Positions 2,595 through 61,795 of a DNA stretch of 64,000 bases are shown here, in pieces (position 1 is the first letter of the stretch; every line of letters begins with the position of its first letter). A program made the translations under genes and the position numbers. The notes below the pieces were generated by a model. It had not been told where the DNA came from and searched no databases. It saw only the letters and a program-made list of their open reading frames with translations. Origin of the DNA: Sanderia malayensis (lineage: Eukaryota; Cnidaria; Scyphozoa; Semaeostomeae; Pelagiidae); contig RQOL01000519.1 of NCBI GenBank assembly GCA_013076295.1, positions 3,338,488 through 3,402,487 of the forward strand, written 5' to 3'.

Positions 2595-2640
2595 GGCTAT
2601 CTGTAAAAGGGGGAACAGGGAATCAGGGAACGGGGAACGG
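2595..2640. repeat. left terminal inverted repeat with GGGAAC sub-repeats
   Basis: GGCTAT (2595-2600), three variable bases, TAAAAG, then GGGAAC/GGGAAT/GGGAAC/GGGGAACGG. The reverse complement of 14717-14756 reads the same: GGCTAT, TAC, TAAAAG, CGGGAACGGGGAACGG. Confidence 0.6.
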
Positions 2641-3580
2641 TTTCACCTCTCCTGAAGTGAAATAGCACTATACCAGTAGCGTGGAATGATTTCATATTTG
2701 TCTCATATATAAGCGCAAGTTTAAAAATACAAAGGATCCTATACGGTTGATGAACAATACATCAAATGAGTAGTGATGTGACTGGAAACCAGCTATTTGA
2801 CCCAGCGCGTGTGCGTTCTTTGGTTTCATGTTTACTTTTAGAATTTCTAATTATAAAAACCATTACAAAGTGAGATACATTTATTTTCAATACATCCAGA
2901 TAGACTTCTAGAAATATTTTTGGTCAGTTGTTAGTTGTTCATCTTGTATGGTGGTTACATGTTATGCTCACAAAACGTGCTCGTTCAGCTCACAGCTGTG
3001 TTATTATCTTTCTGTCAGCTTTTATGTCTGACAGCCCAGGGTTTTGTTAGCCTGCGTGCACTCTTTGAACAGTTCTAAGCCCCAACAGTCTGCGATTTCA
3101 GAAAATTATGTATTGTTTCGTGATTGTGGAACAACAACGATTAGCCAACTTTTTGACTAACCAGCTGGTAAATTGTGAACATCGATACCGAAAGGAAAAA
3201 AATTGAAATCTCAGGATGTTATGAAGTGCTAATTTTAATGTGTCGTAATTTCAATTGTGTAAGTCTTGTTCGGTTCTCACACTTAATCGGTGATCTTTGC
3301 TATTTCGCATGAATGACGTCAGTTCCATAGAAAAATAGAACCTTGGGAATTTTATTTTTAAAACAATGGATATCTGGATTTTTTGAGCCTCGACTTGGGA
3401 GTTTTGAAGATTTCAATCTGACAGCCCTGGCGATGGGTTTGGCAGGTGAAGTATTATTTTCAAAATAGAGGTACCATGCCAAATACCGCAAGGGCATAAG
3501 ATGTGACAAAGACTAAAATTTTGAGGCAGGATATTAGTCGACACACAACCGCTCTGAGTTCATTCAACGTCTTTCTTGCA
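2641..3580. other. presumed 5' region of the kinase-transposase gene
   Basis: No supported coding sequence or repeat. A TATA-like CATATATAAGC lies near 2705-2715, but its link to the gene is unproven. The frame preceding the chosen ATG at 3581 is open back to 3503 without an ATG, so an upstream exon is also possible. Confidence 0.35.
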
Positions 3581-5410
3581 ATGGCAGAGAGAAGTCTTCC
3601 GAAGCCAAAGCACAAAGTGCTTGATGGTCTTGACGGCGTACAGAAATTTAATTGGAATGAAGTCAACCTTATCAGTACTATCGGCACTGGAAGCTTTGGT
3701 TTCGTTATGTTGGCGAAATACAAAGAAAATCATGTTGTGCTCAAACAGCCTTTGTGCGGCGAAGAAAATAAAAAGGAATTCATAAAGGAAGTGAAATTGC
3801 TTAATAGCCTAAAGGGGCATGACAACATAGCTGAATTTAAGGCAGTGTGTTGGAGTCCATTTGCTATCATGCAAGAGTATGTTAATTTTTCTTTTGCTGC
3901 CTTTGAAGACGGGACGAACGTCAGCTCGCTATCCATGTTTCTGTCTCATATAAACGAGGTATATGACTTTGCCGGCTTTGAACATGTTACAGATTTTATA
4001 GTTAACGATATCCTGAACGGAATGCTTTATATCCACGAACGTGATATCATTCATCGTGATTTGAAACCAGCGAATATTTTGGTGAGTAATCAGCATATAT
4101 TTAGCGAAGATAAGACCTCGTTCCTTGCCAAATGGATATCAGAGACACAGCCCGTAATATGCAAATTAAGTGACTTTGGTGAGAGCAGATCGCGGCTTGT
4201 TCAAACTCAGACGGTATTGGTATCGAAGGTTGCACAAATAGATCGAGGCAGTCCGGTGTACATGGCACCTGAAATATTGCTGAAAAATTTGAGACCCGCA
4301 TTAGCAGACATGGAGACATTGAAAGCAGCTGATATGTGGGCAGTTGGCATGTGCATTTTTGTTGTCACTAATGCGAACCAGCCGTATCCATTTCATAACG
4401 CTCTTTTAAAGTGCACCAACGACAACATCAGGGAAGCTCTTGAAGATCTAGTATCAAAACAACAGCGCCCGTCGCTATCAACAAAGTATGAAAAGCTGCA
4501 TGCTACAGCTTGGTGGCCGTTAGTAAATCTATCAGAAAGACTAACATCATATGACCAGGATGAGCGAATAACATCTGTAGAGAGTGCTGTTGGAGCTCTA
4601 AAGGAACTTAAAAGAAAGTCAACTTCTGCAACTTTCAATTTAAAGATACATCAAGGCAGTGCATTCGAAATGGTATGTGAAGAATCGGCAAAGCAACTCC
4701 AGCAAGGCCTGCATCTTCCTGGAAACATCGATGTCACTAACGATGGCACAAATGGGTGTGTTTTCCTGGCCTTAAAATTGTGCGATGAATTGAGGAATTT
4801 TACAATGGAGATAAATGACGATGCAAGTCTCTCTACGATTTGGTCTAAAATTGCTGATTTGACACATGCCATTATAAACGACTTTCCTGGAATTATAAAC
4901 CCGCTACGCGATAGAGATCAAATATATACACCATCGGAGGCAAAGGTAATTATGGCCAAGCATGGATATTTAGAAGCAGGTACTGAACTATCAGAAGAAA
5001 TGCCATTCATTGATCCTTTGTTAAGTGCAAAAGGGCGAAAGAATTTGATGAACTCTTTGAATCGTCTAATGAAAGAAAAAAACTCTTTTCTTTCTATTTA
5101 CACATTTGAACCATACAGTATCATCATAGGTAAGGCGAGGCGTATTGTTTTTTCGGTCGACACCCATGCGGTGCCCAAATTATGTGATGGAGATGGCAAC
5201 GCTCAAGTGAATGTTTATGACTGTGAAGATGTCAAGACACCGACTGCAGTTTGTCTATGGATATGGTCAAGGGCAGCAAACAGTGGAATATCAGCTGAAA
5301 CTGCACAATCGCTTGCAATAGTGTCCACATCAATTGTTTCCGAAAATGCAGAAAAGCAAGCATACAATCCCTTTGCTGTTGAGTCCTGCTTCATTAATCT
5401 GACTGTTGAA
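3581..5410 (+). CDS. protein kinase domain plus cysteine-protease-like domain (exon 1 of the transposon gene)
   Basis: 610 codons from the ATG at 3581 (context TTGCAATGG) to a strong splice donor GTAAGTAT at 5411. Residues about 30-340 form a complete Ser/Thr-type protein kinase: glycine loop GTGSFG (35-40), VVLK lysine 55, HRDLKPAN with Asp160, SDFG with Asp198 and MAPE at 228-231. All catalytic residues are present, so it should be able to phosphorylate. Residues about 350-610 form a second domain with GTNGC (Cys393) and VDTH (Asp527, His529). That Cys plus Asp-x-His layout resembles peptidase C76-type deubiquitinases; this is inference from motif layout only. Reading past the donor gives a stop at 5528-5530 inside the intron. 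The next exon (9956) joins in phase 0. It could instead be a separate host gene captured beside the transposase. Confidence 0.82.
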
Positions 5411-5519
5411 GTAAGTATCAGACACAATTTATATGCTTCCAATACCTTGTTTGTAGCTGCTTTTTCGTTGCGGCACATCCGAAAGAGAAATGCGTCTCCA
5501 GATTGCAAACTACTATTTA

Positions 5520-5927
5520 ATGTTAGTTAATACATGAAATTTATTAACTTTAGTTAATTAGGCACGGATTTTTCATATTGCGTGACTGTTTTTTAATGCT
5601 AATCAACAACCAAAATTAACAGGGCCACACCAAGGGTGCGTTGATTACTTGACACAGGCAAGGTATTTTAATCTGGCACCAATCGTAAAATATCACGCAT
5701 AGCGATGCTGCCTGTATCTAATCTCAGCTTGATGAAAGTGACAAGCACAATAAACCAATCAGAGCTCCCAACACAGCAGGCTAACCAGCGACAAGCCAAT
5801 CAAATTAAGCGAATCACCACGCAAAATACTCCCTTTATAAGACAATGCAAAGCCCTCAAAGGGCAACAATTTACAAACAAAGCAACATATACATAGTTGC
5901 CAAGCAAATCAAGGAAACAAAAATTTA
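5520..5927 (+). repeat. Ngaro A1 direct repeat
   Basis: 408 bp, starts ATGTTAGTTAATAC and ends ACAAAAATTTA. It repeats at 8788-9195 with no difference that I noticed, a constant offset of 3268. Confidence 0.85.
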
Positions 5928-5949
5928 ATTTGAACGAAAGCTAGGTGAG

Positions 5950-6375
5950 ATGGCTAAAAGCAAGTCAATTAAACAAGGCATACGGAGAAGTACGCGACCT
6001 TCTACAGCGGCGACTACTGCTAGTTCATGGCCCAGTGTTGCAACCGAAGCCAACACGGCAATAGAAGGCTCTCTGGCTACCATCGTCCGCGAACTGATGA
6101 CCGCCAACAAGCCTCCACAGACGGATAGACCAGCCAATACGCCGCAGCCAGTTTCACTCGAAACGTTGCATCTTCCAAGCAGTTCAGCCCCACCGATGAT
6201 GCCGGCCACGTACACCATCAATGCCTTCTCGCCGGAGGTTTCCAACAGCCTCGTCAGACAAATCCAGAGCGGTGAGTTTTTTGAATTATCAAAAATTAGT
6301 CACTCAGAACCTCCAGAAATTATCTCCCCCGGCACCACAAGTTTTCCATTTGAATGGGGGATGATAACGACTTGA
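5950..6375 (+). CDS. Ngaro gag-like ORF1, short
   Basis: A 141-codon frame starting just after A1 (MAKSKSIKQGIRRSTRPS...), basic at the N-terminus, then Ser/Thr/Pro/Ala-rich, with a SLVRQIQSGEFFEL-like segment. Position and composition fit the gag-like protein of DIRS/Ngaro elements, but there is no zinc knuckle and the frame stops early. I do not recognise a specific fold. The coding strand continues as broken frames to the RT fragment at about 6959, with a poly-T/G low-complexity run at 6658-6711. Confidence 0.45.
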   Translation: MAKSKSIKQGIRRSTRPSTAATTASSWPSVATEANTAIEGSLATIVRELMTANKPPQTDRPANTPQPVSLETLHLPSSSAPPMMPATYTINAFSPEVSNSLVRQIQSGEFFELSKISHSEPPEIISPGTTSFPFEWGMITT

Positions 6376-6958
6376 AGATTGTTAAGCACGATGTACTGGG
6401 GAAGGATCGACCAACAATTCTGGTTGATGACGTTTACAGCCGGCCCACAAGATCAAGAGGATTGTATTTTTAACAAAGAACCCTTTAACAGTAAATCCCT
6501 TGCGGCAAAAAGGGACGACGTATGCCGCAGGTTTAATATCGAACGCTTTTGTAAAGACTTTACTACTTTACATTACTACTTCGTTATCTCGTAGTTTAAA
6601 ACCGTTGAGTAGAATTGATGTCGTTCATCTAGAACTCGCTTTAGACACCCATCCTGATTGTTTTTTTTTTGTTTTTTTTTGTTTTTTTTGTTTTTTTTGT
6701 TTTTCGCTTCTGACCTGTGTACCGGACTACGGGAGGGTGTTTCAATTAGCGACCACAGCCCTAGAATACCCAGGCGTTCTCCGAATCCACCCACTGCTTC
6801 ACTTCACCCGGACAAAATTACCGAAAATCTTAACAAAGAGGTCTCCTTAGAGCGCCCAGTGGGCCCCTTTTTCAGAGCCGCCGTTTCCAAACCTGCAAGT
6901 TTCCCCCCTGGGGGTAGTTCCGGCAAACTGTTCCGAAAAATTCCGCACAATTTTTCAT

Positions 6959-7606
6959 TTGTCTTATCCGAATTCGATCAATTCTTTCCTTGACAAGGAC
7001 TCGCATTCTTTAAAATATGTAATAATCGATGAAGCAATTGCAGAGCCTCAACGTCTCGGGCTTGGTTCATTTATGGCCAAAACAGACATCGAATCTGCCT
7101 TTCGTCTAATTCAAGTCCATCCAAACGACTGGGAATTATTGGGTATGAACTGGAACGGGGGTTTCTATTTCGAAAAATTCTTGCTTATTGGCCTACGCGG
7201 CGGTCCTTTTCTCTTCAATCAATATGCTACCGCGATTCACTGGATACTGGAACATAAGTGTGTAATTTCCTACGTGACACACTTCCTAGACGATTTCTTG
7301 ATTATCGAACCTAAAAATCCTGATTCCCCGTTTGACAAAATTTGTAAGGTCAGCCTTCAAGAAACAGGCATTTCCATCGCGTGGCTAGAGTTGTATGCTA
7401 TTGTTATGGCCTGCCTTATTTGTGCACCACGCTGGTTTACGAAAAGGATTTATTTTAATGCAATAACGAGTCTGTTGTTTATATCATTACCTCAAAACGT
7501 CCCCCTTCCCAAAGTGATGGCTCTGGTCCATCACCTAACGCTTCTCACTATGCAATATAATTTCTATTTTTTGCTAAACACATCCCGGGAGCAAACAACG
7601 AAATAG
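6959..7606 (+). pseudogene. DIRS/Ngaro reverse transcriptase fragment
   Basis: The frame contains MAKTDIESAFRLIQVHP, LLGMNWNGGFYFEK, the GLRGGPFLFNQ segment and FLDDFLI, the order and spacing of DIRS-type RT motifs with catalytic LDD. Soon afterwards it reads IAWLELYAIVMAC, which resembles the RNase H part, so the thumb/connection region looks deleted. The N-terminal fingers are also missing or frameshifted. An intact element would copy RNA to DNA before circular integration; this copy cannot supply that function itself. Confidence 0.75.
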
Positions 7607-7830
7607 CTGATTCTCTCTCACGTTTCCAGGTCGATTGTTTCCGACCATTGGCGCCATGGGCCGACCCCCTGCCTCAACAACTCCCGGAGGAAATTTCGCA
7701 CCTTTGACGCCTTTGTTACACCATTTTCAAGTTTTTCACTCGCCCAAAATACACAAGACTCACACCGCACGGGGGTCAAGCAGTTCCTTACTTTTGCTAA
7801 GCGTTCAAAGCTCATGGATTTTAGGGTATT

Positions 7831-8235
7831 TTGTCCGCCGACGGAATTACTCTATGTTATTTTGCTACTCACATGGCCCCGACTGTCTCACATGACACAA
7901 TAACAATGTTTCTGGCCGCAGTGAGAGACTTTCATTTACAACACGTTTTTACTTGCAACTTGCAAGATTTCTGTCGACAATATATATTCTTTGATCACTT
8001 TCACATTTCCGGGCTGCTTCAGCTGGACACTGCACGTGATCTCGATAACCAAATGATATGGGCCATAATTTGCTCCGCACAATTGGATACAATTGCACAT
8101 CTAATTTCACGCATTTCTCTATACTCGTTTTTATGGGCAATCGCTGGACGCAATTTGTGGGCAAAAGTGCAAACACTTCATATCACAAAAACTCGGAATA
8201 GCACATCAATAACCTATACTGATACAAATCAGTAA
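7831..8235 (+). pseudogene. tyrosine recombinase N-terminal fragment
   Basis: The frame reads YFATHMAPTVSHDTITMFL, then AAVRDFHLQHVF, matching the SAM-like N-terminal segment of DIRS/Ngaro tyrosine recombinases (tHxTIkxYlaAVR). The catalytic Arg...His-x-x-Arg...Tyr part is not recognisable before B1 begins at 8160, so the enzyme is truncated. Its place after the RT fits the Ngaro gene order. Confidence 0.6.
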
Positions 8236-8787
8236 AGTATTAGGCTCAACGAGGCCTCGCGTACCTCGTTATGGTTTCGAATCGGGGCCTCGCGTACCCC
8301 GTACAAATTAATGGCAAGGCCTCGCGTACCTTATAAAAAGCCAGGGGCCTCGCGTACCCCATCGCAAAATATGTCAAAACAAAACGGACAGCGTCCGTAA
8401 ATTCCGAGTCAGGGACAGCGTCCCTAAATTCCGAGTCAGGGACAGCGTCCCTAAATTCCAAGTCAGGGACAGCGTCCCTAAATTCCGAGTCAGGGACAGC
8501 GTCCCTCAGGGACAGCGTCCCTGCCCCTCCGCTCGCACTTCGTTCCTTGCAAATGCGTTTCCTACACCGCCCACAATATCGTAATTAACTGTTTTAATTT
8601 ATGTATAACATCATTGATATATTTACGTATTATTACCTAACAATTATGTTGTAAATTATAATGATGATGAAGATGGCTATGTTGTAAATTATGATTATGA
8701 TGACTATTATGATGATGATTATGATGACTCAAAGCATATCGCAATGGTTTGTTCTTGCGATTCTCTGCGGTAGGAGTGAATAATTAA
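8160..8787 (+). repeat. Ngaro B1 direct repeat with internal minisatellites
   Basis: 628 bp, repeated at 9316-9943 (offset 1156). Inside, GGCCTCGCGTACC occurs four times at about 8251-8360, and a 27-bp unit built on the palindrome-like GGGACAGCGTCCC occurs about five times at 8388-8522. Confidence 0.85.
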
Positions 8788-9195
8788 ATGTTAGTTAATA
8801 CATGAAATTTATTAACTTTAGTTAATTAGGCACGGATTTTTCATATTGCGTGACTGTTTTTTAATGCTAATCAACAACCAAAATTAACAGGGCCACACCA
8901 AGGGTGCGTTGATTACTTGACACAGGCAAGGTATTTTAATCTGGCACCAATCGTAAAATATCACGCATAGCGATGCTGCCTGTATCTAATCTCAGCTTGA
9001 TGAAAGTGACAAGCACAATAAACCAATCAGAGCTCCCAACACAGCAGGCTAACCAGCGACAAGCCAATCAAATTAAGCGAATCACCACGCAAAATACTCC
9101 CTTTATAAGACAATGCAAAGCCCTCAAAGGGCAACAATTTACAAACAAAGCAACATATACATAGTTGCCAAGCAAATCAAGGAAACAAAAATTTA
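8788..9195 (+). repeat. Ngaro A2 direct repeat
   Basis: Copy of A1 at the same orientation, directly abutting B1. It is followed by 120 bp (9196-9315) of unique sequence before B2. Confidence 0.85.
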
Positions 9196-9315
9196 CCCGC
9201 CCACCTCCCTATCCACCGATAGAGGCATATCCAAGGTTCTACGAGCTACCTTTCACGAACCACCTGATTAATTGAAAGTCGCAATGCATCTGAGACGCCA
9301 AACTTTGCAGGAACT

Positions 9316-9943
9316 GGCAAAAGTGCAAACACTTCATATCACAAAAACTCGGAATAGCACATCAATAACCTATACTGATACAAATCAGTAAAGTATTAGG
9401 CTCAACGAGGCCTCGCGTACCTCGTTATGGTTTCGAATCGGGGCCTCGCGTACCCCGTACAAATTAATGGCAAGGCCTCGCGTACCTTATAAAAAGCCAG
9501 GGGCCTCGCGTACCCCATCGCAAAATATGTCAAAACAAAACGGACAGCGTCCGTAAATTCCGAGTCAGGGACAGCGTCCCTAAATTCCGAGTCAAGGACA
9601 GCGTCCCTAAATTCCAAGTCAGGGACAGCGTCCCTAAATTCCGAGTCAGGGACAGCGTCCCTCAGGGACAGCGTCCCTGCCCCTCCGCTCGCACTTCGTT
9701 CCTTGCAAATGCGTTTCCTACACCGCCCACAATATCGTAATTAACTGTTTTAATTTATGTATAACATCATTGATATATTTACGTATTATTACCTAACAAT
9801 TATGTTGTAAATTATAATGATGATGAAGATGGCTATGTTGTAAATTATGATTATGATGACTATTATGATGATGATTATGATGACTCAAAGCATATCGCAA
9901 TGGTTTGTTCTTGCGATTCTCTGCGGTAGGAGTGAATAATTAA
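9316..9943 (+). repeat. Ngaro B2 direct repeat
   Basis: Copy of B1. One visible substitution disrupts a GGGACAGCGTCCC unit (near 9595, GAGTCAAGGACAGC instead of GAGTCAGGGACAGC). It ends at ...GAATAATTAA, after which the host intron resumes with TGTTTGTTATAG, the acceptor of exon 2. Confidence 0.85.
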
Positions 9944-9955
9944 TGTTTGTTATAG

Positions 9956-12900
9956 ACTGAGGATGTGATAGACGATCATGATGCTTCATCAGCCTTTTGC
10001 AGCATTGCCGATGAACCAATTCATCAACTTCGTAAGCCCATCATCGAGGTAAGAATGGGGACGGGATAATTTCCAATATACTCCAAGCTGTGCTCTCTAG
10101 TCGTAAAGTCATTGTCATGTATTATTATTCTCTGATAGCCTAATTCACAAGATTCAAGTCTTCTGCACCAACAATCAGCATTTGATGATAATATTTACTC
10201 AAGTAGACATGTAGAATCCAGTAACAGTGCCAGCAGCGTAATCTCCCTTGGCTCGACTCTCTCAGGGCGAAGCACAAATGAGCGGTAAGCTTGGGTGCAT
10301 TAGTTTTTTTTGTTGCACAAGTTTTCTTTCAACTTTTCTTCTATTATTTCAATGCTGAGCATTGCTCTGGGATACTTACATATCTATATTGCTTAAATTT
10401 TGTTTCAGAGAAGAACATTCTACTGGAAAGGAAAATACGTCACTGCAGCCTGATGGAGAGGCTTATAACGGCGATACACGCACACCAGTTTTTTCATGGC
10501 GAAAAGAACCATACGAATTTGCGGACATTGCAAAAATCATGCTGTCGACTTACACAAGGGAATCCCTGTGTGTTGCACCACCGATTAATGTGTCTCACAA
10601 CGTATCTTTTCTCGCTGAATATTCCAGCTTTACCAACTGGGAAGATTTGAAATGCGATGACATGGGAGCATGGAAGCATACAGGCTCACCAAAGCGCTAT
10701 TACCATGTGGACATGATTGACGAGAAGCCTGCCACGGTTACCCCAGTGACAAAATCAGAGTTCGGAGAGCAAGGTGTATGGCGAATGAAGAGGATTTATT
10801 ATAAAAACAAATCGGATTGCAGCATCCGCAAGACAATTTCCATCATGCAAGGTTGGTGTTATGGCTGTATATTTCATCGTGCATATATGAACCATATTGC
10901 TAGGTTACTTGTGTTGTTTGCTTGAATTGCTCTTCTAAATCATCATTCCAGATGCAACAGAGAAATGTGGGGAGTACATATTTTTAGAATATCGATTTAA
11001 AGGAGAGGAACACGAGATAACAGCAATAAAACCTCATGGCAATAGCAAAAGCAGGAGACAGTATATCCGCGTATTTCCAAGTGTAAGAGACAAGCTGCGA
11101 GATTCAAAGTCAAAGAAACAAAGTAGCGCAAGTGGTGAGTTGGATAAGGTGTATCTATCCTCAGGAGACGTACTGGGAGCTAGAAGTCTGGGAGAGTTAC
11201 CACGTGGACGTAGTGATCTCTACAATGCAAGAAGATCTGCTAGCAGCTCAACAAGTACAGGCAAACAGAATGGCAATGAAAAGGTATTGTGCGACGAATT
11301 CTGGTCGCTGCTGGAGAAAGCAAAAAGAGAGAGTTTGTCGGGAAAGGGTGGGTCATTTATAAGAGAATGTAGCGCACACCCAGAGCTTTTTGTTGTTCTG
11401 GCTACCGATCGGCAGTTGCAAGATATAGAAAAGTTCTGTACCGATCCAAGAGAATTCTGCGTGTATGGTATCGACCCAACGTTCAACATATTCAAAGAGA
11501 ATATCAGTCTCACCGTTACAACATACAGAAATCTCCGCTTAATGAAACGTGATACCAACAAGCCACCAATGTTCATTGGTCCTGTGTTAATGCATCAGCG
11601 CAAAGATTGGAGAACGTATTCTAGATTTGCTCACCGCATTGTCTTGGAAAACCCAGCGTTGGAAGCAATTATAGCTTGTGGTACGGACGGTGAAAAGGCA
11701 ATAATGGATGGCTGCAAAAGAAATTTTCCCTTTGCAATTTTCTTGCGATGTTTCATTCATTTCAAAGGTGAATATTTCAAAAGTACTTTTCTGTACCCCC
11801 TATGTAGATGAACAGTTTACCCATCTTGATTTCATCATTGTATCTGGTATCAGCATTACTGAAATGTTTTCTGCGCTAGGTACCATCGAACGAGAGATTA
11901 CGCGAAGAGGTCTTGGCACAAGCTTCAAAAAAGCCGTTATGAATGATATATTTGGCAAGCAAGAAGATCATACAAAGTTCTATGGATTAGTGGACTGTGA
12001 TGATGGAATTTAATTTGACACCAAACTGGAGGCATTGCAGGATGATTGGGTCGAAAAGGAAAAATGCGATCCATGTAAAAAACTTCCAGGTCAATCTTTC
12101 CATGCTTGGTTTACAAAAGAAAAGGTACGGTCTAGCAAATGCATTGTATTTTATTTAGAAATTCACATATGGTGCTAGATATTATAGACTTTGAACCAGG
12201 AGGTAGAATGTTATTATTTTTGTATTATATTGTCATTTCTTTGCTATACTTTTACAGGCAGAAGACATAAAGGATTTCCTTTTGAAGCCGGTGCGCATCG
12301 AAGCTGGGCTGGGAAATCCGCCAGACGAGTACACAACAAACGACAACGAGGCAGCAAACCAGGTGATAAAGAAATCGCTGCACTATGATCCTCAAGACCC
12401 ACAGAAATTCATCGAACATATCCAGGATATGATCGAGGGCCAATCCCGCAACGAAGATCGTGCAGTATTTGGCAAGGGACCTTACAAAGTGAGGGATCAA
12501 TACTCACACCTAGAAATCGACGATCGAAAATGGGGGAAAATGACATACGATTAAAAAATGGCACAGGCTGTGAAGTTTCGCAATGCTGGAATGGACAACG
12601 CACGGCGTGAGCTACCGGAGAAGGACAGCGACGATGATGGTGTTGATGATGATGATCATGATGACGATGCAAATCACCGAAACAGAAAATTGTCAATATC
12701 TGCAGTACAAAGTGGTATTAAGGTAGTTATGTATGTATGTTGCTAACCGAGACAAGTGCCCAGCACAAGTATACAAATTCATATATACATTCTGTGATAA
12801 CAGTGATGGGTACGCAGAACTTAAAAATTATTCCTTGCAGAGCGATTCGTTTGCAAAACATGTTTTCATATGACATCGGTAACGTTATTTTCTGCTTTAT

Positions 12901-13893
12901 GCTCACTGCAAATATAGATGTGTTTGCTTTATTATACAGGTAATTACACCGGCGATTCTGGAGTCAATGTGGGACAAATCATCAGATCTTCTGCGGCAAC
13001 CCAAACACGTGTTCCCACAGCCAGGTGCAACAAATGGTGCATTTAGTGTCGTAGCAGCCAACAATAAGCTTTACAGTGTAATACCCGGCAAAGGTGGCTC
13101 ATTTACCTGCGAGAAAACTTGTATTCATTACAGTACAAAGGTAGGGCATACTAATTCTAGACACTTTTATAGCTATCCACGATTCACAAAGGTTTCCTGG
13201 CAATAACAAGATGTTATGTATTTCCTTCAGATCTGTGAGCATACATTAGCAGCAGCACAGGCAAACGGTACTATTCACAGTTTCATAAATTGGTTCAAAA
13301 GATCAAAAAAGAAAAAAAGCCTGGTCGATCTAGCTCTTGTAGGTGGGCCAAAAACAGCTGGAAAAAAGCCCTCCAATCGCAAACGGTCCAACAACAAGCG
13401 CAAATCAATTGAAGATATGGTGGACATCCACAAAGATAAGATGCCTTTGCAGACACACAGTGCTCATGTTCAGACACCTCCTGTAAGCACGTGCCACCCA
13501 ATACAACATGTGTTGCCGCCTGCTTCACTGCACCCTAGCCTTGCCCTTTCTGGAAAAGGTAACCGCTTTTCATTGAAATGGGTTGCAGGTACTCGTATAT
13601 CAAAATGCTATGGTTGTCGTGGGGATATAATAAACCCCCCTACCCAAGTTCCAGAGGATCTCGTGGTTGTATACCAGGACATGCGACAGTATCGAGACAG
13701 AGCTACAGGAAACATGGTGTTTACATCTGAAGCCCAAAATGTACATTTTCATTTGCGACTAAGATGCATCCTAGCAAAATATATGTTTTTCAATCCTGGT
13801 TTGCTGGAGATCCCTCCAGAATTCATCGCCTACTTTCAGGAGGCACATTTGCAACGACTTTCTTCCGAATTTGGGTTGATTTTCCATTTATAA
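9956..13893 (+). CDS. MULE-family transposase with SWIM-like zinc finger (exons 2-9)
   Basis: Exons 9956-10048, 10139-10284, 10409-10851, 10952-11767, 11880-12124, 12258-12722, 12940-13140 and 13231-13893 all have GT/AG borders and join in consistent phase. Exon 2 starts in phase 0, matching the kinase exon end. Exon 5 carries the DDE-type core: YGIDPTFNI, an FIGPVLMHQRKDW segment, CGTDGEKAI and CFIHFK. Exons 8-9 carry TCEKTC...ICEHTLAAA, a SWIM-like Cys/His finger, then basic KKKK/RKRSNNKRK stretches and a C-terminal CYGCRGDI motif. Two in-frame TAA codons (12011-12013 and 12552-12554) would stop translation, so this copy is probably inactive. Family role: cutting and reinserting the element through its terminal inverted repeats. 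Confidence 0.78.
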
Positions 13894-14041
13894 CTTTGCA
13901 ATATTTACATAATTGTTTTTCATCATTCTCTTCAGTTAAAGTTCGGTTGCCAATGTGCGCATTTCCACTTTTTTTATATTAATCCAATTTTACATGTTTT
14001 GTTGATGTTTCAGTGTATTTCCAGTTTAAGGGATAAGAACG

Positions 14042-14082
<41 letters not shown>

Positions 14083-14640
14083 AATTTATTTATAGTTGGC
14101 TGGGAATATAGCAAATGCTAATAAAGGCCAACTCTACTCTACCCTACTTACAAATGTACAATGAAATTAATTAAATTTAATTACAGATGCGGCAGTTACA
14201 TCCGAATCCCTTCCAACTTTTGATTTTACTCAATCACATTTTTCTAATTCTACATATTATAAGATGGCCCAGAAAAGATAAGATGGCGCATCCTTTCTAC
14301 ATTCTTCGAGTTTGTTTCATGGGGCATAGTATATTTTTTCATTATATGTTATTGGTTAGGCGAGTCATTAATTCTGAATTACAGTCTACCCCCTGACCAC
14401 TAAATTATTGGTGTTGAACAGACATCGTTGACAGCTCGCATTGGACGGAGTGATGATACAAACAGCGAATCGGAAGTCATCAAAGCGGGCGATATTCACA
14501 TTCACAAAATGCATCTGGTCTTTCGTTGTTTACATATTAAAACTATAAAGTTTACCTTGTTTACCTATTAAGACTGTAGATTTTATTTACAGTTATGATA
14601 GGTAAACGTTTCGTAACGTTTCATAAACGTGCAAAAACTT
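13894..14640. other. 3' region of the transposon gene, with an (AAT)n microsatellite
   Basis: No further coding exon can be supported, although acceptor-like AGs occur near 14186 and 14421. A perfect (AAT)n run of about 38 bp lies at 14044-14081. Confidence 0.5.
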
Positions 14641-14661
14641 GTAAATTTCAAACGGTTTCAT

Positions 14662-14756
14662 ACTTCCGCTCCCCGACCGTTCCCCGACGGTTCCCCGACC
14701 GTTCCCCGGTCGTTCCCAGGTTATTCCGTTCCCCGTTCCCGCTTTTAGTAATAGCC
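14662..14756. repeat. right terminal inverted repeat with GTTCCCCGACC units
   Basis: Tandem CGTTCCCCGACC/GG-type units (14668-14715), then GTTCCCCGTTCCC and CTTTTAGTAATAGCC ending at 14756. It is the inverted partner of 2595-2640. The next base, 14757, is already Gypsy RT coding sequence on the minus strand. Confidence 0.6.
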
Positions 14757-14899: not shown

Positions 14900-14915
14900 G
14901 GCTATCTTTAAAACA

Positions 14916-15038
14916 CCGAATCCGAAATCCGGAATCCGGAATCCAGAATACGGAATCCGGAATCCGGAATACGGAATCCGGAATACGGAATCCGGAATCC
15001 GGAATACGGAATCCGGAATCCGGAATACGGAATCCGGA
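14916..15038. repeat. GGAATCC/GGAATAC heptamer minisatellite, left arm
   Basis: About 17 tandem 7-bp units GGAATMC (M is C or A). It is read through by spurious Asn-Pro-Glu-Ser-Gly-Ile-Arg frames. The same array occurs inverted at 17264-17372. Confidence 0.9.
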
Positions 15039-15704
15039 ATGATAATAGTAATAATGATTATTATCATTCAACCATTGAACATAACTATAAAGATATTTAC
15101 AAAAAAATTATTACGCTGCTTTTTATCACATCTGGTATGCTATTTTAGAGTATGTTACCCCTAATAAATACAGAATTCATGCCGATGGCCACAATGGATG
15201 TGCTAGGAAGTAGACGTATATCATAACTTGGCGTTACCAACCAAATATCACTTAACACATCCCTCATGTGATGATATTTGAAATGTGCTAACTTATTGGG
15301 GATCCAACTGAGCCACCGACTAGTGTATTACGAATATGACAAACAACCTATGCTTAATATCAAGTGCTGACACCCAAAATGTATTAGCCAATTAATGCCA
15401 AGTTTTTTAAGTAACCAAGTTTTTTAGTTCTTAACCTTTTATGTGGTATTCTTTAGTTATATGTAGAGAAAAATGGATTCTTTCTTGTAACACCACACGT
15501 TTTTTTATATAAGAAACCGCTTTATAAGAAACTCACTGGTAAAAGGCCAAGAAATTTAAGAAACTTTCACTGGTAAATGAAAAATCACTAAGAAACTTTT
15601 CGATTTTTTATTCTTGTTTGAAATACCACTGTGCATGGTAATATCAATATCAGGGGAGTAGATATGATGCTTGTTGATTAATGTTAGATAAACAACTATA
15701 CTAA

Positions 15705-26639: not shown

Positions 26640-29600
26640 GCCCCAATAGAAAAAGCAGACAATCGAGACTCACAGGAAGGTAGGAAAAACCATCATAGAA
26701 AATGTTTAATTATTTTCATATATAGATAAAGAGAGGGCTGCTGCTAGTAATCAAATTGAAAATTATTGGCAATGAAAGGCCTTTATGTGAAGCAACTTCA
26801 CAAAATCAGGGAATCAAACATTCAGCCGACAAGCGTATTTACATTTAACATTTCTACAATGCTTCCATTAACGATTTCTTTTCATTACTGACGGCGAGTA
26901 ATGTTCAATGCGTTATGCAGGCAGATTATCATATAGTAGATTTATATTATCATACTCATTTTTTTCCTTTGCTCAACGTCACTAACACGTTGTTTAAACC
27001 TGTTTCATTTTAGAGAGAGAACCTGATGGATCCCCTGCTAAAAAGAAGTATCGTCACGGAGAGATACAAGGTCAAGGTATCACATTTATTTTGCTCTGAA
27101 AAACTGTATTTTAAGAAAGGGAACGGTAAGCATCACAGCTGGGATTGTCTAAGCAACAAGCACTACATATTTATTCAAAAACCTACAATTCATGATATTT
27201 AGGAGACATATTCCAGCAGTTATTCAAGTAAAAATATAACAAAACAGCAGAACAGAAACAAATTGATGAAAGAGCGTGTACATATAATAATATATTTTGG
27301 CCCAGGCGCCACGCAGCCGATCCGTTAGTGGCCTGGCAGTAATCCTCAAATGAGGCAAAGGACGTCGACATGAAGCCACAAGCCCAAAGAGTGGCATAAC
27401 TGTTTGTGCTTAGTATGGGCCAAGTGGGAAAATTGCCAGTATAGTGTGCGCGCGGATACGCACAGGGAACTGTCAATTATACTAAAAACAATCCGCAGTT
27501 TGTATGTGTCACGCGCATCACCCAATGAACCCTGACTCACATTTGCCCCAAAGTTGCATCCCTTGGAAAAGCCATTTATTTTGGGTAGGAAGCAGCATTT
27601 GTTCTAAAAATGGCAACAATATATGAAATAGCAAATATTCAGTGGTGAGGAGAGGGGGGTCATGAGGGTCTTTTTGTGCCTAAGTAAGAAACAAAATGGG
27701 AAGAAGATTAATGCCCTTTCGAAATTATATGACGTAGCAATGAGAAACAAAAAGGAACAAAAACATATCACTAATTTTTTTGTTTAACAGAACAGAAAGA
27801 AATAAAAGTAGATGAAATAAAATAGTAATGGAAAAATTGACATCATGTGGTAATATCGACTTTGCTTTGTGATGTGAAACATGTTTCAGGGGTTTTTCCT
27901 GTTGCAATCTATCACAGCAATGACTGTTGTCATCCTGTAAACTGTTTTTGGAACAATATAGTGTGCCATTTAAGCGCGAATACTTGAGGGGGGTCCAACA
28001 GACATTCTGGCCCATTTGTGTTTGGAATTCTTCACAAAAATGTCCCTACTGTACAACGAACTCCCGCTATTGCGAACTGTTTTATCGGCTCCTACAGAGT
28101 TCGTTATAACGGGATTCTACTGTAACTGTTTTTATAATAATGGCTCACAGTTGAGCAAACTCCTCATATAATAGATATAGCACTAGAAACTGTGGCTAAG
28201 CCCAAATTATAATTACTATTAATAAACAAAACAATACATCTATGAAAATATCAGCTTTGCAGTGTTTTTGTTCCAAGGAAATACAACAATACAATAAATG
28301 TAATTAATCTGTGGCATAGAATCAGCTTTTCTGCCCACCAAAAGGATAATTTTTGGGTTGACACAAGTTTATTGTTGATTGTTCGGCCACTTGGTATAAA
28401 AATTTGGTTGGGTAATGCTTTTCTCAAAACATATCCAATGCTACCAGATCTCTCATAACTTTGCCTCAACAATTCTCAGCTTCATGTACATAAAATTAAT
28501 TCCTATAGACGTACTTTACGTATTCTCTTCATGAGCATGTTGTTTCTATCTGAAAATTGTAGAGGCGGAAGGGACAAAGCATAAAGGCATAAGTGAAAAA
28601 AGTCCAATACCAGCAAACCAAAATGGACATGTCATGCTCTCTTATCAATGGGACAGCCAAAAAATTGTCATGCGTGTTAGAGACAAGCTTCAAGAACTGG
28701 GATGCTTAACCTGGATGGATGTCGACAAAATTCAAGGGAACATTTATCATAAGATGGCAGAAGGAGTCGAAGAAGCAATTGTTATTGTTCCTTTTTTATC
28801 GTCCAAGTATGACAGCTCTGAAAATTGCATGAGGGAATTAAACTACGCTGCCGTAAGACACTGCTGCTCTTTTTTATTCATCTTGCATTATCATGGAAAC
28901 GTTACACCAATTGTTTTATATTTTATCACTCAAAATTTACTTTTTAACTTTTTAATGCACTCACAGGACCATAAAAAGAGGATTGTCCCAGTCATTCTTG
29001 ATGAGAGTTACAAAAGGAAAGGGCCATCTGGTTTAATTATTTCAGGAAAGCTTTACATAGATTTCTCAGATGAGTTACGTTTTGATTCAAATATCAAGGC
29101 ACTGAAAAGAGAAATTGACGCAGCACTCGGTGAGAGTTAACATGCTAAGAAATTACCAAATGTTAAAATGGTATAAAAAGTGGAGTGAAAAGAAACATAT
29201 GTCTTTCTTCCTTATGTTAATTATATATTTATATATTATTGTGTTTAACAAACTATTGTATACGATACTTCACAAATAGGAACTGCAAGTCACATAAAGT
29301 TGACTACTTATTAATGACTGCATAACAAAGTTGAATAAGAAAACTACACGTATTTCTGACGACACATCAATTAACAGCAAATTTCGCAATGATTGTAAGC
29401 TTTTCCAATTTAGGGCATTATTGAATAAAGTGAATAAACCGTTTTATGCCAATAAGACAATTAATTAACAACGTAATTTAAATTTGGTAATCCATGATAT
29501 TGTTCGACTGATGTCAGGAACTATCGTTTTCATACGAGACAGATCTCAACAACTTGAGTGTTTTTCATTCATTCACAATCACCATTTTTCGATTGGACTA

Positions 29601-50252: not shown

Positions 50253-50487
50253 ATCGTGCGCAATATAAGTCTCCAGACTATCCGCGTAGATTGTAATATA
50301 ATGTGTTTTCACCATCCTTTATCGGCATTCATTGTATACAACAATATTTGAATAGCATTCAGTCTATAGATGTATTTGAACTCAGTTTGCGTCCCCAAAC
50401 CTAAATTATTAAAACCAAGGCTAAAGCCGGTCTTTAACCATAGCTACGCTATTGCTAACAATTGCGCGTTCTTCTTTGTTCTTCCAG

Positions 50488-52588
50488 AAATGTCCACAAC
50501 GTTAAAAGAAAAACTGTGGAAGGAGCTTGAAAAATGGAGCATAAGCTTGGTTGACACAAACGGAAGTGACGAAGGAGGATTTTTTATCGAAAAAGAAGAG
50601 GATCGTGAAAACTATACAGCCGAATTACGTCTTTCGTATACAAGAAAGCTAAATCAAAACTTACCCGGAGAGTTATCGACTTTTTTAGAGCACCCAGGGA
50701 AAGATGAAGGATGCCTTGATTATGAAGAATTGATCACGTCTAGAATTAGACAATGCTTTATTAGGGGAGTTCCTGGCGTAGGAAAAACAAGCTTAATTGA
50801 ATACATTGCATTGAAATGGGCAAAGGGGGAGTTATTCAACGATGACAAGGGGAATGCCCGGTTGACTTCCTTTTTGTGATAAAGTGCAGAGAACTAGACG
50901 AGGAAGACGAAGAAACTATTGAGGGATTTTTTAAAAGAAAATTTGATGTTAACGTAAACGAATTGCGTAACAACGGCGAAAAAGTTCTGCTAATTATAGA
51001 TGGCCTGGATGAAGGTGCAGACTTGCAAAAGTCTTTGCAGGGAAATTCGAAGTTAAGAGAGCCAATGCTTGAAAATGGCTCTTTTTTGAAAGGCCATGCA
51101 ACACTGGCAACAGGAAGACCACATATTGAGTCAATAATTGACGCTTTAAAGAAGGTTATTGGGGAATACAAAAGGATAGAGGTTACAGGTCTTTCGGCCA
51201 AAGAGGTTCATAAGCAAATTGATAGGATTGCAAACAACAACGAGATGACTGCATCGAAAATCAAACAGAAAGTCGAAAGCTCCGCATGTATGAGGGCCCT
51301 TGCCGCTATACCACAATATCTGAAAACCCTTTGCTATGTGACAACAATCCAAGGGAAGAGTTCAGATGTTGAGGACACAATGACATCTTTGTATATTTGG
51401 ACATTATATTCATTTTGGACCCAGCACGTAAATGATAAAGGCAACTATGAAAGAAATGGAGTATATGATTGCTTTAATGATCCTGAGACAAAAACATTCA
51501 TCCGTGTGTTATCAAACATTTCTTATGAGCTGCTGAAGCAAGATAAAATTATCTTCAAACACAAAGATTTTCCTGAAATAGCTAAACTGACAGCCGAAAA
51601 CCAGCAATGTTCAATACTTTTTTCGTAAAGAAAAAAAGACATCACCAGCCATTATACCAGTTCAAGCATTTAACAATGCATGAGTTTTTTGCTGCAACTC
51701 ATTGTTTTCTCACGAAAATACAAGCTGAAGTTGTTCTAGAGAGAAAGTTCTATGAAGTTGCACGTTTCATTGGAGGATTCATAGCAGCCGAAGAATCTGA
51801 TAATGATGAGAGCATCACGACAGGTTACATCAACTGCCTCAAAGATGCTAATGCAAATGAATGCAAGAAGGGAAAAGCTGTTTCATATTTCAATTCAGTG
51901 CTTAATTGTTTGCAGCGACTCAAGGTGCAAGGTGAATTTGCACAGCACTTTGCTTTGGGCCTATTTCGTGAGATGTTTAAAGGTGGAGAAAATCTTCACG
52001 ATGCATCTGTTCACACAATTCCACGTTTTCAGTGTGTTGTGGGAGATCCAGCATTTGTCTATTATGACATGACGCAAATCCAGTTGGATGTGCTTGTGCA
52101 CTTTATAAAATTGATGAAAGAAAATAATTTGCTGAATAAGCTAAATGAAACAACACTCAGAATTCGATTCTCTGATCTAACTCAGCATAGTTACTATGGC
52201 GATGGTGATAATGCATTAAATGACTTATTTAAAACTTTCCTAAGTTTTAAAAACGTTTGGTTCACATACTGTGAATCCAACTCATTCCCGTGGATGAAAA
52301 TGGTCGAAGTAAAATGCCCGACACAGTCAAAACTTGACCATTTGTACATCAACAGATGTTTCATGACAGAAGAGGATACAATTCAACTTGTAAAAATTAT
52401 TCCATTTGCAGCCAGAGTTGAGCTTACGCGATGATGTGCTAGAAAAGTTACTCGTTGCAATAAAAGAAGAGCAGAATCAAAAGAGAGCAAGACTCACAGA
52501 GCTGAAGATGAACTACTGCAGGATCAAGAGTGACTTTAAGAAGAAATTCATGAGCTTGAAGGGTGTAGAGACAAAGATCATTAAATAA
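50488..52588 (+). pseudogene. NACHT-domain NLR-type receptor, frame-disrupted
   Basis: It begins after a pyrimidine-rich acceptor TTCTTCCAG (50487), in phase 1, so the last small TIR-gene exon (ending 29810/40378) can join it; alternatively the ATG at 50490 is a start. Walker A is GVPGVGKTS (about 50764-50792) and Walker B LLIIDGLDEG (about 50988-51017). These are followed by ATGRPHI, an LKTLCYVTTI helical region, YQFKHLTMHEFFAA of the winged-helix region, and a short leucine-rich tail (VLEKLL...LTELKMNYC). NACHT proteins are ATP-driven oligomerising sensors of innate immunity. The frame shifts near 50860, 51615-51650 and 52415; each is explained by single extra bases beside short homopolymers, so assembly error is as possible as pseudogenisation. 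The leucine-rich part is unusually short. Confidence 0.8.
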
Positions 52589-57106: not shown

Positions 57107-57987
57107 GGGATGCCTCACTTTCTGGCTGGAGTGACGAGCATCCCTCTTTATTTTTTGTTGGGCATACCTCTGTTTTTGTAGTTTTTCTGGTGTGCAACTG
57201 CCAGCTCTTGTTGACACTGGATCTATGAAATCTATTGTCGACTTTCAATCGTTCCAGCGTATTTTCGAACACTGCACCCAGAACAATCTTGAACACCCCG
57301 TCCTCAGAGGTACGTCGAACTCTTGTGTGTCTATTACCGGACAACCACTTCAATTCGTTGGTGAAGCGGTTGTCACGTTTTCATTGCCTGATAGTAATTT
57401 CAAATTTTCATATTTGATTTTCTTGTATGTAATAATGTGCTACAACCCTTCCAATGCCTGCTGGGATGGGATTTCATCACTAAGTTTCGGCTCTCCCTTG
57501 GATTTTCTGGGCATCAGTATTTGTTAAATGGGCCTCATGGCAACACACCTCTGACACCCTGGATTTCTTCTTCGGGTTCCCCTTCTTCTGGTTGTGTTGT
57601 TCTTTCCAGTGCTCCTCGGGTAGAAGCAACTCCTATCCTTATACAGTCTTCCAACCAAGTACCCATCTCGCTTACTCTTGTTGATAGTTTTTCTATACCT
57701 AGGCGTAGTGAGTGCATTGCATTGTGAATACAGACAATGCTGCCTAGGAAGTATTCTGATCAGTTAGGCATGGTGTATCCATTAGAAGCAACAGATTACA
57801 CCACTGCATTCACAGTTAGTAGGGCCAATAAGGGTATTGTTATGTGCGAGTCATGAATTCTTCAGAATCAGATAAACAGCTATACGCAGGCTAGCAAGTA
57901 GGTAAGTTTGTACCTGTAGTTGAGTCAATAGACCCTTCACAGCATCATTCAGGAGACAGTGTCTGTGCCAGTGTTAGTTGTCAGTCA
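57107..57987 (+). pseudogene. Gypsy protease and linker, frameshifted
   Basis: SGVQLPALVDTGSMKSIVD at about 57185-57245 contains the catalytic DTGS of an aspartic protease. A frame change near 57430 leads to CLLGWDFITKF, the end of the protease. The linker to pol (57730-57985) contains several stops. The element therefore could not make a continuous pol from this copy. Confidence 0.75.
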
Positions 57988-59505
57988 GTGATAGAGCCTT
58001 CCACTTTGAAAGAACTGCAGGCCGCTATTAGTCCTTGCTTGACAGCTAATGAGAGAGAACAGCTCTTGAACACATTACTTGAATTTCCTGATGTTTTTAA
58101 CAACCGTCTTGGTCATACTTCTGTCACTATGCACAAGATTGATACCGGTAATTCACCCCCAATTCGTCAATACCCCCGTCGTCTGCCCTACCATTATCGA
58201 AGTGAAGTTGACCAACAAGTTGCTGATATGCTTGCACAAAGTGTCATTCAGCCTAGCACAAGCCCATGGGCATCCCCAGTTGTACTTGTTAAGAAAAAGG
58301 ATGGGTCATATCGTTTTTGTATTGATTACCGCAAATTAAACTCAATTACCAAACAAGATGCCAGCCCTGTGCCCCGGGTAGATGACTTGTTAGATGCCTT
58401 AAATGGCTACAGTATGTTTAGCACATTAGACCTTCGAAGTGGGTACTGGCAAGTGAGTATGACCCCTGAAGACAGAGAGAAAACAGCCTTTATGACCCCA
58501 AATGGTCTGCATGAATTTTTGCTGATGCCCTATGGATTATCTACTGCCCCTGCTACTTTTTCAAGAGCTATAGGCATTGTTCTTTCGGGCCTCACATATG
58601 AAACTTGTTTGTGTTACTTTGATGACGTCATCATTTTCTCTAAGGACATCCGCCAACACTGGGAACGTTTAAAAGCTGTTTTAACTCGCTTTCGTAATCA
58701 AAACCTCCGAGTTAAAGCCTCAAAATGCTCTTTTGCTTCTGATAAAGTTGTGTACTTAGGCCACACTGTTTCTAAACAAGGTGTGCATACTGACCCTTCA
58801 AAAGTGCATGCCGTTAAACAACTAACTGCTCCTTCTACGTTAGATGAACTACGTTCTTTTTTGGGTTTGGCTGGATATTATAAACGATTTATTCCTCAAT
58901 TTGCTACTATTGCTTCGCCATTAACTGACCTCACTAAGAAATCAACCAAATTTATGTGGACGGACAGCACTGAACACGCATTTCAACAACTTAAGTCCTG
59001 TCTCTGCACGGCCACGATATTAGCTTATCCCAACTTCGAAAAACCTTTTGTATTACAAACCGATGCGTCTGACGTGGGTCTGGGAGCTGTTCTAACGCAA
59101 TGTGACACGTCGGGTCATGAAAGGGTAATTTCTTATGCCAGCCGCACTCTCACTAGCAGAGAAAGAAATTATACAGCGATGGAAAAAGAAGCCTTAGCTG
59201 TTGCATTTGCTAGTCAGCATTTTTGCGTATATCTTCTTGGCCGACAATTCTATTTGATCACTGATAACAGTGCGTTAAAATGGCTGCATTCCATTCAACC
59301 CAAGGGTAGGATTGCTCGATGGATAATGGATCTTCAAGAATTTGACTTTACCATAACACATCGCCCTGGGAGCCACAACCAAAATGCCCACGCTCTCTCC
59401 CGCCTTAATCATAAACCTTTAGCTTCCGCTGAGTCACTTGACAGTAGTACCGTCAATTCTTTTGTCGGCCTTTCCCCAGACACTGATTTGTATTCGGCCC
59501 AACGC
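57988..59505 (+). CDS. Gypsy pol: reverse transcriptase and RNase H, truncated
   Basis: An uninterrupted frame of about 506 codons. RT motifs are QSVIQPSTSPWASPVVLVKK, FCIDYRKLN, STLDLRSGYWQV, MPYGLSTAPATFSRAI, YFDDVIIFS (catalytic DD) and KASKCSFASDKVVYLGH. RNase H motifs are LQTDASDVGLGAVL, MEKEALAVAF, ITDNSALKWL and HRPGSHNQNAHALSR. Integrase should follow but the frame is cut after DLYSAQR by the BEL LTR beginning TGTTGTAG at 59506. The last residues before the stop at 59518-59520 come from that LTR. The catalytic residues are intact, so the copy was young when interrupted. Confidence 0.92.
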
Positions 59506-59688
59506 TGTTGTAGAGTTTGAGGTCGGAAGCAAAGAAAACACACTTCTTGCAAATATCTACAGAAACAACTGATTTACAGTATAACTACAATGATTTTTAT
59601 ACTACCCAAGGCGTGTGTGGAAGCTCGCCAAGACTATTACTACGACAATACGAGGACTGGGTCCAAGCGAATGACTCATTTCACAACA
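59506..59688 (-). repeat. BEL/Pao LTR, 183 bp
   Basis: Begins TGTTGTAG and ends CACAACA (TG...CA with matching 6-bp inverted tips). It is followed by CACTCCCCC, the complement of a polypurine tract, as expected at the 3' LTR of a minus-strand element. AACGC (59501-59505) may be the target duplication; the partner lies outside the window. Confidence 0.75.
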
Positions 59689-59835: not shown

Positions 59836-60293
59836 TTAGATAACGTTGTTCTTTCGGATGAGTTCTCCGACCACAGCAGCGTTCCTGCGAGGTCTGCTGG
59901 ACTCCAACGTGACTGTAGCTTGCGGCTGCGCTTGCTGCTGCTGCGGTGGCGCTTGTTGCTGCGGTGGCGCTCCTTGCTGTTGTGTATCTGACTGACTACT
60001 CTGACTACGTATTTCTAACGGAACTAGATGTTTTAAGGATCGTTTCAGCACTGTCTTACCATTTTTCGAAATTACCTCTACCTGGGCGGATCTCGTTGAG
60101 CCATCATTTCCAACTATCAATTTGATGACTTTGCCAATTTTCCAGAATGTCCTTTTCTCCTGTTCGTTCCTGACAACAACAATGTCATTCAAGTTAATTA
60201 TGGGATTGCTTGACGAGTTATCCCTTCCTTTCGGTCGGTACGCTTCTAAAAGACCTAACAAGTATTCATTTTTCCACAATAGTGCAAACTTAT
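59836..60293 (-). pseudogene. BEL/Pao C-terminal DUF5641 region
   Basis: The minus frame starts WKNEYLLGLLEAYRPKG, then DIVVVRNEQEKRTFWKIGKV, EVISKNGKTVLKRSLKHLVP and a Gln/Pro-rich tail, stopping at 59836. This is the C-terminal region of BEL/Pao integrases. It is separated from the rest of the polyprotein by the TTAA-flanked insertion at 60298-61795. The related decayed copies lie at 31110 and 42120. Confidence 0.85.
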
Positions 60294-60297
60294 TTAA

Positions 60298-61795
60298 AGT
60301 GCCCCTACACCTTATTTTTTTATTCTTTATATCGATAAAACTTTCTTCGCCGATTTTAGATACGAAAATATTTTTTAAATCTGACGTCTAGTTAACGAGT
60401 TATAACGTGGGGAAGTGTCGATGTTTCGTCATTTTCGCCATTTTTTGTGGTCAACTTTTAGGACTGGATCTACCTACTATGACATCATAGTTTGGTGCAT
60501 TGTGCCCGTTCATTTTCCCGTACTGAAGCAACAAATCGGCATCAATTTTCTGTCATACGATGCACTCGATATTTGTTTTTTTGACTTTGATGATTAGAAA
60601 CAGGTGGCGCATTATGACATTGAATTTGAAAGGCTTGCGATGAGTTTGCAGCTGTGGGGAGGAATTACAAAATTCCATGTAGTGGCTGCTCGTTGTGCTC
60701 AGTGGAGGCGGGCGTGGGCCGTGCAATGTTAAAACTGTACGGGAGCGGGGATGCCAAGAAGAGCATCAAAACATGATATAAACTGGGAAAATATGCCATA
60801 TCGATGTGTTTTGCTAGCCATGGAAATACACCGATAAATCAAAATTTGTATGGTCACAAAATTCTCCTTTATCAGAATGATCGCCCTAAAACTGTGAGGA
60901 GAAGGAGATGGATAGATTTCATCAATTCGCACGACGGAAGAAATTCTATGGACGCATCATCATGAATGAAATAATCAAACACAAAGCGCATAATTTCGTA
61001 CAATAACGAAATTCATGTGTAGTATAAGGAATTGTGTTGCAGATTTTCTACACTTGCTGTTCCAAATGAAAATCGAATCGTTTCAAGCTTCCTCAACCCC
61101 AAAGGTTTAGACTGACACGGATATGATGGCTAAATTATTGCGTATATTGAATTTTGATATACACTTTTGCTTCATCACAAACACAACAAAAGACAATAAT
61201 TCAGATCTAGTCAAATGCCCAGAAAGTTTTCTTTCAACATTTCTTTTCTTGCTCACATCTCTTTCATGGCTTTGACTGAAAGAGTTCTCAGCCAAATGGC
61301 ATCAAATGCATCAGGTTTCTCCTTCATCGGTATCACTATCAACGATCTGCTTTGCTCTACGATACGATCAATCCTATCCCTCGCCATCTTCGCATTCCTC
61401 GCACTGCAATCCCTACTGTCATGAACTACTATCCGACAAAGAATGTTAATTCATGGAAACTTTCTATTCGATTCTGATCACCAAAATTGCACAAATACCC
61501 ACGAATACACATAACGAGACACGACAAAAGCGCAACGCAAACACTATTTATTATACTGAATGTAGGCCTACGCCCGCCGCCACTGAATACAACGAGCAGC
61601 CACTACATTGGAGTTTACCTACTATGATGTCATAGTAGGTAAATTACGGTCCTAAAAGTTGACCACGAAAAAGTGGCACGCGTTGCCTCGTATCTCAAAA
61701 ACTACTTGTCATATCAAAAAAATATAAACGGATTCAGAATCAGCGCATTCGAATCTATAGTTTTAGCCAATAAAAAAATAAGGTGTAGGGGCACT
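60298..61795. mobile_element. TTAA-flanked (piggyBac-like) non-autonomous element, 1.5 kb
   Basis: Ends AGTGCCCCTACACCTTATTT and its complement are flanked by TTAA at 60294-60297 and 61796-61799. Inverted homology extends about 190 bp inward, to ACCTACTATGACATCATAG near 60470 and 61620. The TTAA duplication suggests piggyBac, although the tips do not start with CCC; a TA duplication reading is also possible. No transposase frame. It splits the BEL coding region. Confidence 0.8.

Follow-up and report, generated by a model that had tools for sequence, protein, structure and literature searches.

The genome of the scyphozoan Sanderia malayensis contains Mutator-like DNA transposons (MULEs) in which a single gene encodes a protein kinase, a predicted viral-tegument-like deubiquitinase (VTD) domain and a MULE transposase, in that order. 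One copy lies within a stretch of 64,000 nucleotides of contig RQOL01000519.1 (assembly GCA_013076295.1, positions 3,338,488 to 3,402,487 of the forward strand), referred to here as the window, whose coordinates are used throughout. The kinase-VTD-transposase architecture is well supported, and the MULE-like element with a joint kinase-transposase gene that the initial annotation of this DNA had proposed is borne out by two sister copies that have matching ends and target-site duplications, by 11 of the 19 related loci read, by public gene models and by two diverged fusions; its function we infer from sequence. The explanation that we favour, and consider probable, is that the element is an autonomous MULE with one gene for a Ser/Thr-type kinase, a VTD domain and a transposase that combines a DDE core with a SWIM-like finger, the two enzymes acting with the transposase, and that the window locus is a decayed copy of it.

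A DNA transposon usually supplies a transposase, and regulation is left to the host. Here, two putative protein-modifying enzymes stand ahead of the transposase in one gene, and identity between fusions of this order has fallen to 23-28%, so that one can now test whether transposons move by acting on phosphorylation and ubiquitin control in the host. VTD domains are known to be spread by transposons, to which a MULE can now be added as a carrier, and eukaryotic kinase-VTD genes may derive from such an element.

Organization of the kinase-transposase gene

The gene comprises nine exons (Table 1), as initially annotated, with GT/AG borders at each intron and exon lengths totalling 4902, a multiple of three. 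Exon 1 matches the protein kinase family PF00069 well above the cut-off (E 6.3e-31, 108.2 bits vs 31.7 bits), and the Lys55, HRD Asp160 and DFG Asp198 originally reported are indeed present; Asp160, Asn165 and Asp198 are invariant across 33 exon 1 relatives. With the domain match and the Lys, HRD, Asn and DFG residues, this is by its sequence a member of the PF00069 kinases, and its HRDLKPxN motif is of the Ser/Thr kinase form. The best NCBIfam match of the exon 1 protein (residues 140-386) is to the model of the antiphage kinase MAD6, which is likewise the top match of the diverged relative P0085; at 63 bits against a cut-off of 460 (E 2e-17), it falls far under membership.

Beyond about residue 358, exon 1 contains a second domain, overlooked in the initial annotation, for which an AlphaFold2 model and a fold search indicate the fold of the viral-tegument-like deubiquitinases; the best matches in the fold search with this domain are deubiquitinases. 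The available part of the description of the VTD family gives its hallmark as a catalytic Cys and an invariable Asp-x-His (PMC9741609), and in exon 1 and its relatives Cys393 and Asp527 are present in all 18 aligned sequences and His529 in 17 of the 18. Having both the modelled fold and these residues, the domain is predicted to be a VTD. A fold search with the whole of exon 1 and the PDB sequence profile of A2 gave only kinases among the matches listed, and a single-sequence PDB search gave no match at E 1e-10.

The core of a MULE transposase has a characteristic order of motifs, with two Asp residues, a CxxH that follows the second Asp and precedes the Glu, and TNxxExxN. In an alignment of seven transposase sequences, Asp1012, Asp1083, Cys1104 and His1107 are invariant and the Glu motif is found in six, P0078 being gapped there. 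The initial annotation had suggested profile searches of both halves of the gene, and these recover the kinase readily and the transposase only under the cut-off: the matches to PF10551 (MULE) are all below it (E 0.066 for the window copy, 0.0021 for P0081 and 1.9e-4 for P0085), as are those of P0083 to SWIM (PF04434, E 0.011) and to IS256 (NF033543, E 3.1e-4). Membership of the MULEs is supported by the DDE core motifs, by long terminal inverted repeats (mismatched at the right end in the window copy), and by target-site duplications of 9-10 bp, the available part of a survey of invertebrate MULEs giving 8-11 bp for the group (PMC6446971).

Sister copies and the family in the same genome

The core transposase exon, used as query against the whole genome (918 contigs, 184 Mb), has 85 listed matches. 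Two copies, L039 (contig C155) and L040 (C481), are 98.1-98.7% identical in nucleotide sequence to the window element over the main blocks; they are 8,231 bp and 8,098 bp long, and both begin with GGCTATCTGTAAAAG and finish with the inverse of GGCTATCTGTAAAAG. The frame of L040 is open over 1,633 codons across nine exons, that of L039 is one base short in exon 1, and all three copies retain the splice donor and acceptor of intron 1. Exact target-site duplications flank L039, L040, L043 and L044 (10 bp each) and L041 (9 bp), and the inverted repeats of L039 are 218 bp long, those of L041 about 660 bp. Inverted ends and duplications enclose kinase sequence in L041 and L043 as well (partial in L043), and in L041 the transposase sits between the same ends as the kinase.

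Upstream DNA was read at 19 of the 85 transposase matches, mostly the top ones. A kinase lies upstream on the same strand in 11 of them: C464 (the window), C155, C481, C103, C836 near 562,500, C303 near 2,403,000 and again near 2,773,000, C849, C569, C778 and C686, the last counted positive from only about 1.5 kb of upstream sequence. One locus has a VTD remnant only (C836 near 540,500), and seven have neither domain (C613, C616, C866, C45, two on C859, and C728). Kinase and transposase do therefore occur together in other copies, L039 (C155) and L040 (C481) among them, a point on which the initial annotation had staked its claim. A chance neighbourhood of a host kinase is ruled out by the copies at other loci and by the diverged fusions described below, and a kinase in every member of this MULE clade is ruled out by the seven loci with neither domain. 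Nor is the element a Pack-MULE, in which pieces of host genes replace the transposase gene: the window copy, L039 and L040 all encode kinase and transposase in one gene, and L041 has the transposase between the same ends.

L044 (C613), one of the loci with neither domain, is a bounded element of 4.9 kb that lacks a kinase and is flanked by a 10-bp duplication. Repeat DNA of the GGAATCCGG type to the right of the window element (14900-15214) matches both ends of L044 (3459-8365) at 85-93%.

Decay of the window copy

The gene was at first taken to be intact in the window, and in this respect the early description does not hold: its conceptual translation runs into stops in exons 6 and 7. Of the two inverted ends initially proposed, the left one stands and is shared with L039 and L040, whereas the right one derives from another element. 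The match to the sister copies breaks off at 14044, and 14227-14717 is 98% identical to a terminal repeat of L041, a family member with 57% identity in the transposase core; the end at 14756 is therefore assigned to a related, different element. No target-site duplication was found around 2595/14756.

Two pairs of direct repeats lie between 5411 and 9955 in the order A1-B1-A2-B2, with 99.5-99.8% identity (A1 5515-5927, B1 8160-8797, A2 8783-9195, B2 9316-9952). Split direct repeats arranged in this manner are the layout of DIRS/Ngaro-type elements. The nested insert has a reverse transcriptase remnant just under the cut-off (RVT_1 E 1.1e-6, 28.9 bits vs 29.6), and a tyrosine recombinase was not identified in it. 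L039 and L040 show the site without an insertion, and their intron 1 measures about 121 nt; its greater length in the window copy is due to the inserted retroelement, which the initial annotation had not recognized. An intact element in the window is thus ruled out by the two stops, the nested insert and the foreign right end.

Fused gene models and diverged relatives

The L040 protein as query retrieved two gene models from a public proteome, P0076 (1,670 residues) and P0077 (1,510 residues). P0076 equals L040 with an additional 37 residues of retained intron, and P0077 equals the window copy over its first 1,146 and last 288 residues, the gene finder having bypassed the stops; because these models match the copies, an independent annotation, itself of predicted genes, has joined both halves. 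Two further proteins have the kinase-VTD-transposase order, P0083 (1,484 residues, 23% identity over 96% of the L040 query) and P0085 (1,324 residues, 28% identity over 65% of the query, with the transposase cut short). Both retain the kinase Lys, HRD, Asn and DFG and the VTD Cys and DTH, and both were probably called without introns, because their largest contigs are only 6.3 and 5.3 kb. In the viral contigs searched there was no relative of the fusion, and the kinase profile gave two weak matches there. The recurrence of the same order in other copies and in two diverged fused proteins is more than chance.

In a set of eight elements, six from the window genome plus P0083 and P0085, identity in the kinase-VTD part goes along with identity in the transposase core (Mantel test, r 0.742, with 4 of 40,320 permutations as high). 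An earlier run including P0078, which is probably the C569 locus, gave r 0.763; P0078 was then dropped and P0085 added. The set was otherwise defined by setting aside L043 and L049 (too little coverage) and L040 (near-identical to the window copy), and L039 was not entered. A tree built from 23 transposase cores distributes the kinase-bearing elements found in the window genome over five sub-lineages, and pairs each of the kinase-less C866, C45 and C616 with sisters that have a kinase (support 100, 100 and 74); the absence of the kinase from these three is best read as loss in those copies. Support is low for C613 (62) and for the placement of the P0083/P0085 pair (33). Among three young copies, non-synonymous/synonymous ratios range from 0.35 to 0.53 in the kinase, from 0.27 to 0.42 in the transposase and from 0.47 to 2.14 in the VTD domain; these values derive from few changes and by themselves show no constraint.

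Proposed function and alternatives

We propose that the kinase and the VTD domain are both active and would act together with the transposase. The kinase may phosphorylate the transposase or nearby host proteins and, as part of one polypeptide with the transposase, might generate or abolish signals for degradation, and the VTD domain would strip ubiquitin from the kinase's targets. The transposase, or factors that it needs, might then escape degradation, or host silencing might be weakened. A comparable role has been suggested by the authors describing Helitron VTDs, which in the available part of their account are proposed to prevent degradation of proteins needed for transposition (PMC9741609). 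The element suggests that mobile DNA may interfere with host protein control in order to move. A broader reading, which we put forward tentatively and hold to be somewhat short of an even chance, is of a MULE lineage not described before, whose transposase has become stably fused to a kinase-deubiquitinase cassette, a signalling unit of two enzymes coupled to the transposase on DNA, that counters host degradation or silencing by a logic like that of viral tegument enzymes, and that persists across distant hosts.

Several observations weigh against a working partnership of these enzymes with the transposase. Seven of the 19 loci have neither kinase nor VTD domain, including L044, whose bounded structure implies that MULEs of this clade are able to transpose in the absence of the module, whether the transposase is their own or comes from another element. 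Several older copies, in frames with stops, have lost kinase residues. The Foldseek TM-scores of the VTD domain are modest (0.34-0.48), and the ratio of 2.14 for this domain comes from the pair of the window copy and L040, with more non-synonymous than synonymous change, which speaks against recent constraint on it.

The two halves could also be two adjacent genes, the kinase-VTD protein being made from its own transcript that reads into intron 1 and the transposase being made separately. The frame of exon 1 does continue into intron 1 as far as a stop at 5528-5530, and many relatives in protein databases are kinase-VTD only, though these are possibly single exons called without introns. We nonetheless consider two proteins unlikely, with the halves fused in one predicted protein in each of P0083 and P0085, united in the public gene models, and separated in three copies by an intron whose donor and acceptor are conserved. 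About as likely, or slightly less so, is the VTD domain as a processing protease that cuts the fusion to free kinase and transposase instead of acting on ubiquitin: deubiquitinases are its best fold matches, and transposon VTDs assayed by others cleave ubiquitin, according to the available part of that work (PMC9741609). Least probable is a passenger, a host kinase gene captured in the manner of Pack-MULEs with no role in transposition, because although MULEs capture genes and kinase-less members exist, the transposase is in the same gene as the kinase, the same kinase-VTD pair is fused to transposase in the two diverged proteins, catalytic residues are kept across the 33 relatives, and the two halves diverge in step.

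Features of the window

Table 1. Features of the kinase-transposase element in the window
Feature	Position	Strand	Evidence or remark
Left terminal inverted repeat, starts GGCTATCTGTAAAAG	2595-2640	+	94-98% match to both ends of L039 and L040
Exon 1, 610 residues, kinase and VTD-like domain	3581-5410	+	Open reading frame with GT donor; conserved in 33 sequences
Protein kinase domain, residues 30-332; Lys55, Asp160, Asn165, Asp198	3668-4576	+	PF00069 E 6.3e-31; catalytic residues
VTD domain, about residues 358-585	4652-5335	+	AlphaFold2 model, fold search, residue conservation
VTD Cys393	4757-4759	+	
VTD Asp527	5159-5161	+	
VTD His529	5165-5167	+	
Nested DIRS/Ngaro-like retroelement, inside intron 1	~5520-9943	+	Repeats; empty site in L039/L040; RVT_1 match
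Exon 2, linker	9956-10048	+	Splice sites and length conserved in L039, L040
Exon 3, linker	10139-10284	+	
Exon 4, transposase N-terminal part	10409-10851	+	Homologous to P0079 and P0081
Exon 5, transposase core: first and second catalytic Asp, CxxH	10952-11767	+	
Exon 6	11880-12124	+	In-frame stop 12011-12013 (window copy)
Exon 7, TNxxExxN motif with catalytic Glu	12258-12722	+	In-frame stop 12552-12554 (window copy)
Exon 8, SWIM-like finger, first part	12940-13140	+	
Exon 9, remainder of finger and C-terminal region	13231-13893	+	
Right-hand inverted end, type of related element L041	14227-14756	+	98% over 491 bp to L041

Elsewhere in the window there is a TIR-domain reading frame (28538-29137, +; PF13676 E 2e-18), and NACHT-like reading frames at 50370-51625 (+) with PF05729 matches just under (E 8.1e-6) and just over (E 3.6e-6) the cut-off. 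Retroelement pieces include reverse transcriptase and RNase H at 57898-59517 (+; RVT_1 E 5.8e-35), and a DUF5641 piece lies on the opposite strand at 59839-60387 (-; E 6e-11).

Comparison with known systems

VTD, OTU and ULP1 domains are already known on transposons. Searches of one open-access library, subscription journals and Repbase not being covered, turned up transposons with protease domains but none with a kinase joined to the transposase, and the word 'kinase' is missing from the main texts of PMC9741609, PMC6446971, PMC6431247, PMC13317346, PMC8277862 and PMC13359780. The following comparisons draw on the available parts of the sources cited.

Invertebrate MULEs share with this element a DDE transposase with CxxH and a SWIM-like finger, inverted ends of hundreds of bases and 9-10 bp duplications (PMC6446971). 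Additional domains occur in some MULEs, with OTU in the MuDR-6_HM group of Cnidaria and SET in Phytophthora, but no kinase or VTD domain is mentioned in that part of the account (PMC6446971). The VTD deubiquitinases of Helitrons and Cnidaria are alike in that the domain is spread by transposons, and cnidarian VTD genes fused to transposon-associated domains are mentioned; Helitrons differ in having Rep/helicase instead of a DDE transposase and, as there described, no kinase (PMC9741609). The plant MULEs Kaonashi/KIU also carry a cysteine protease that belongs to the ubiquitin/SUMO type, but theirs is ULP1, of another family, in a VANC-type gene of non-TIR MULEs in plant hosts, with no kinase in the sections available (PMC13317346). 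Pack-MULEs and Pack-TIRs similarly have host-like coding sequence between inverted ends, but their cargo is non-transposase (PMC8277862), whereas here the extra domains lie within the transposase gene and have persisted over deep divergence.
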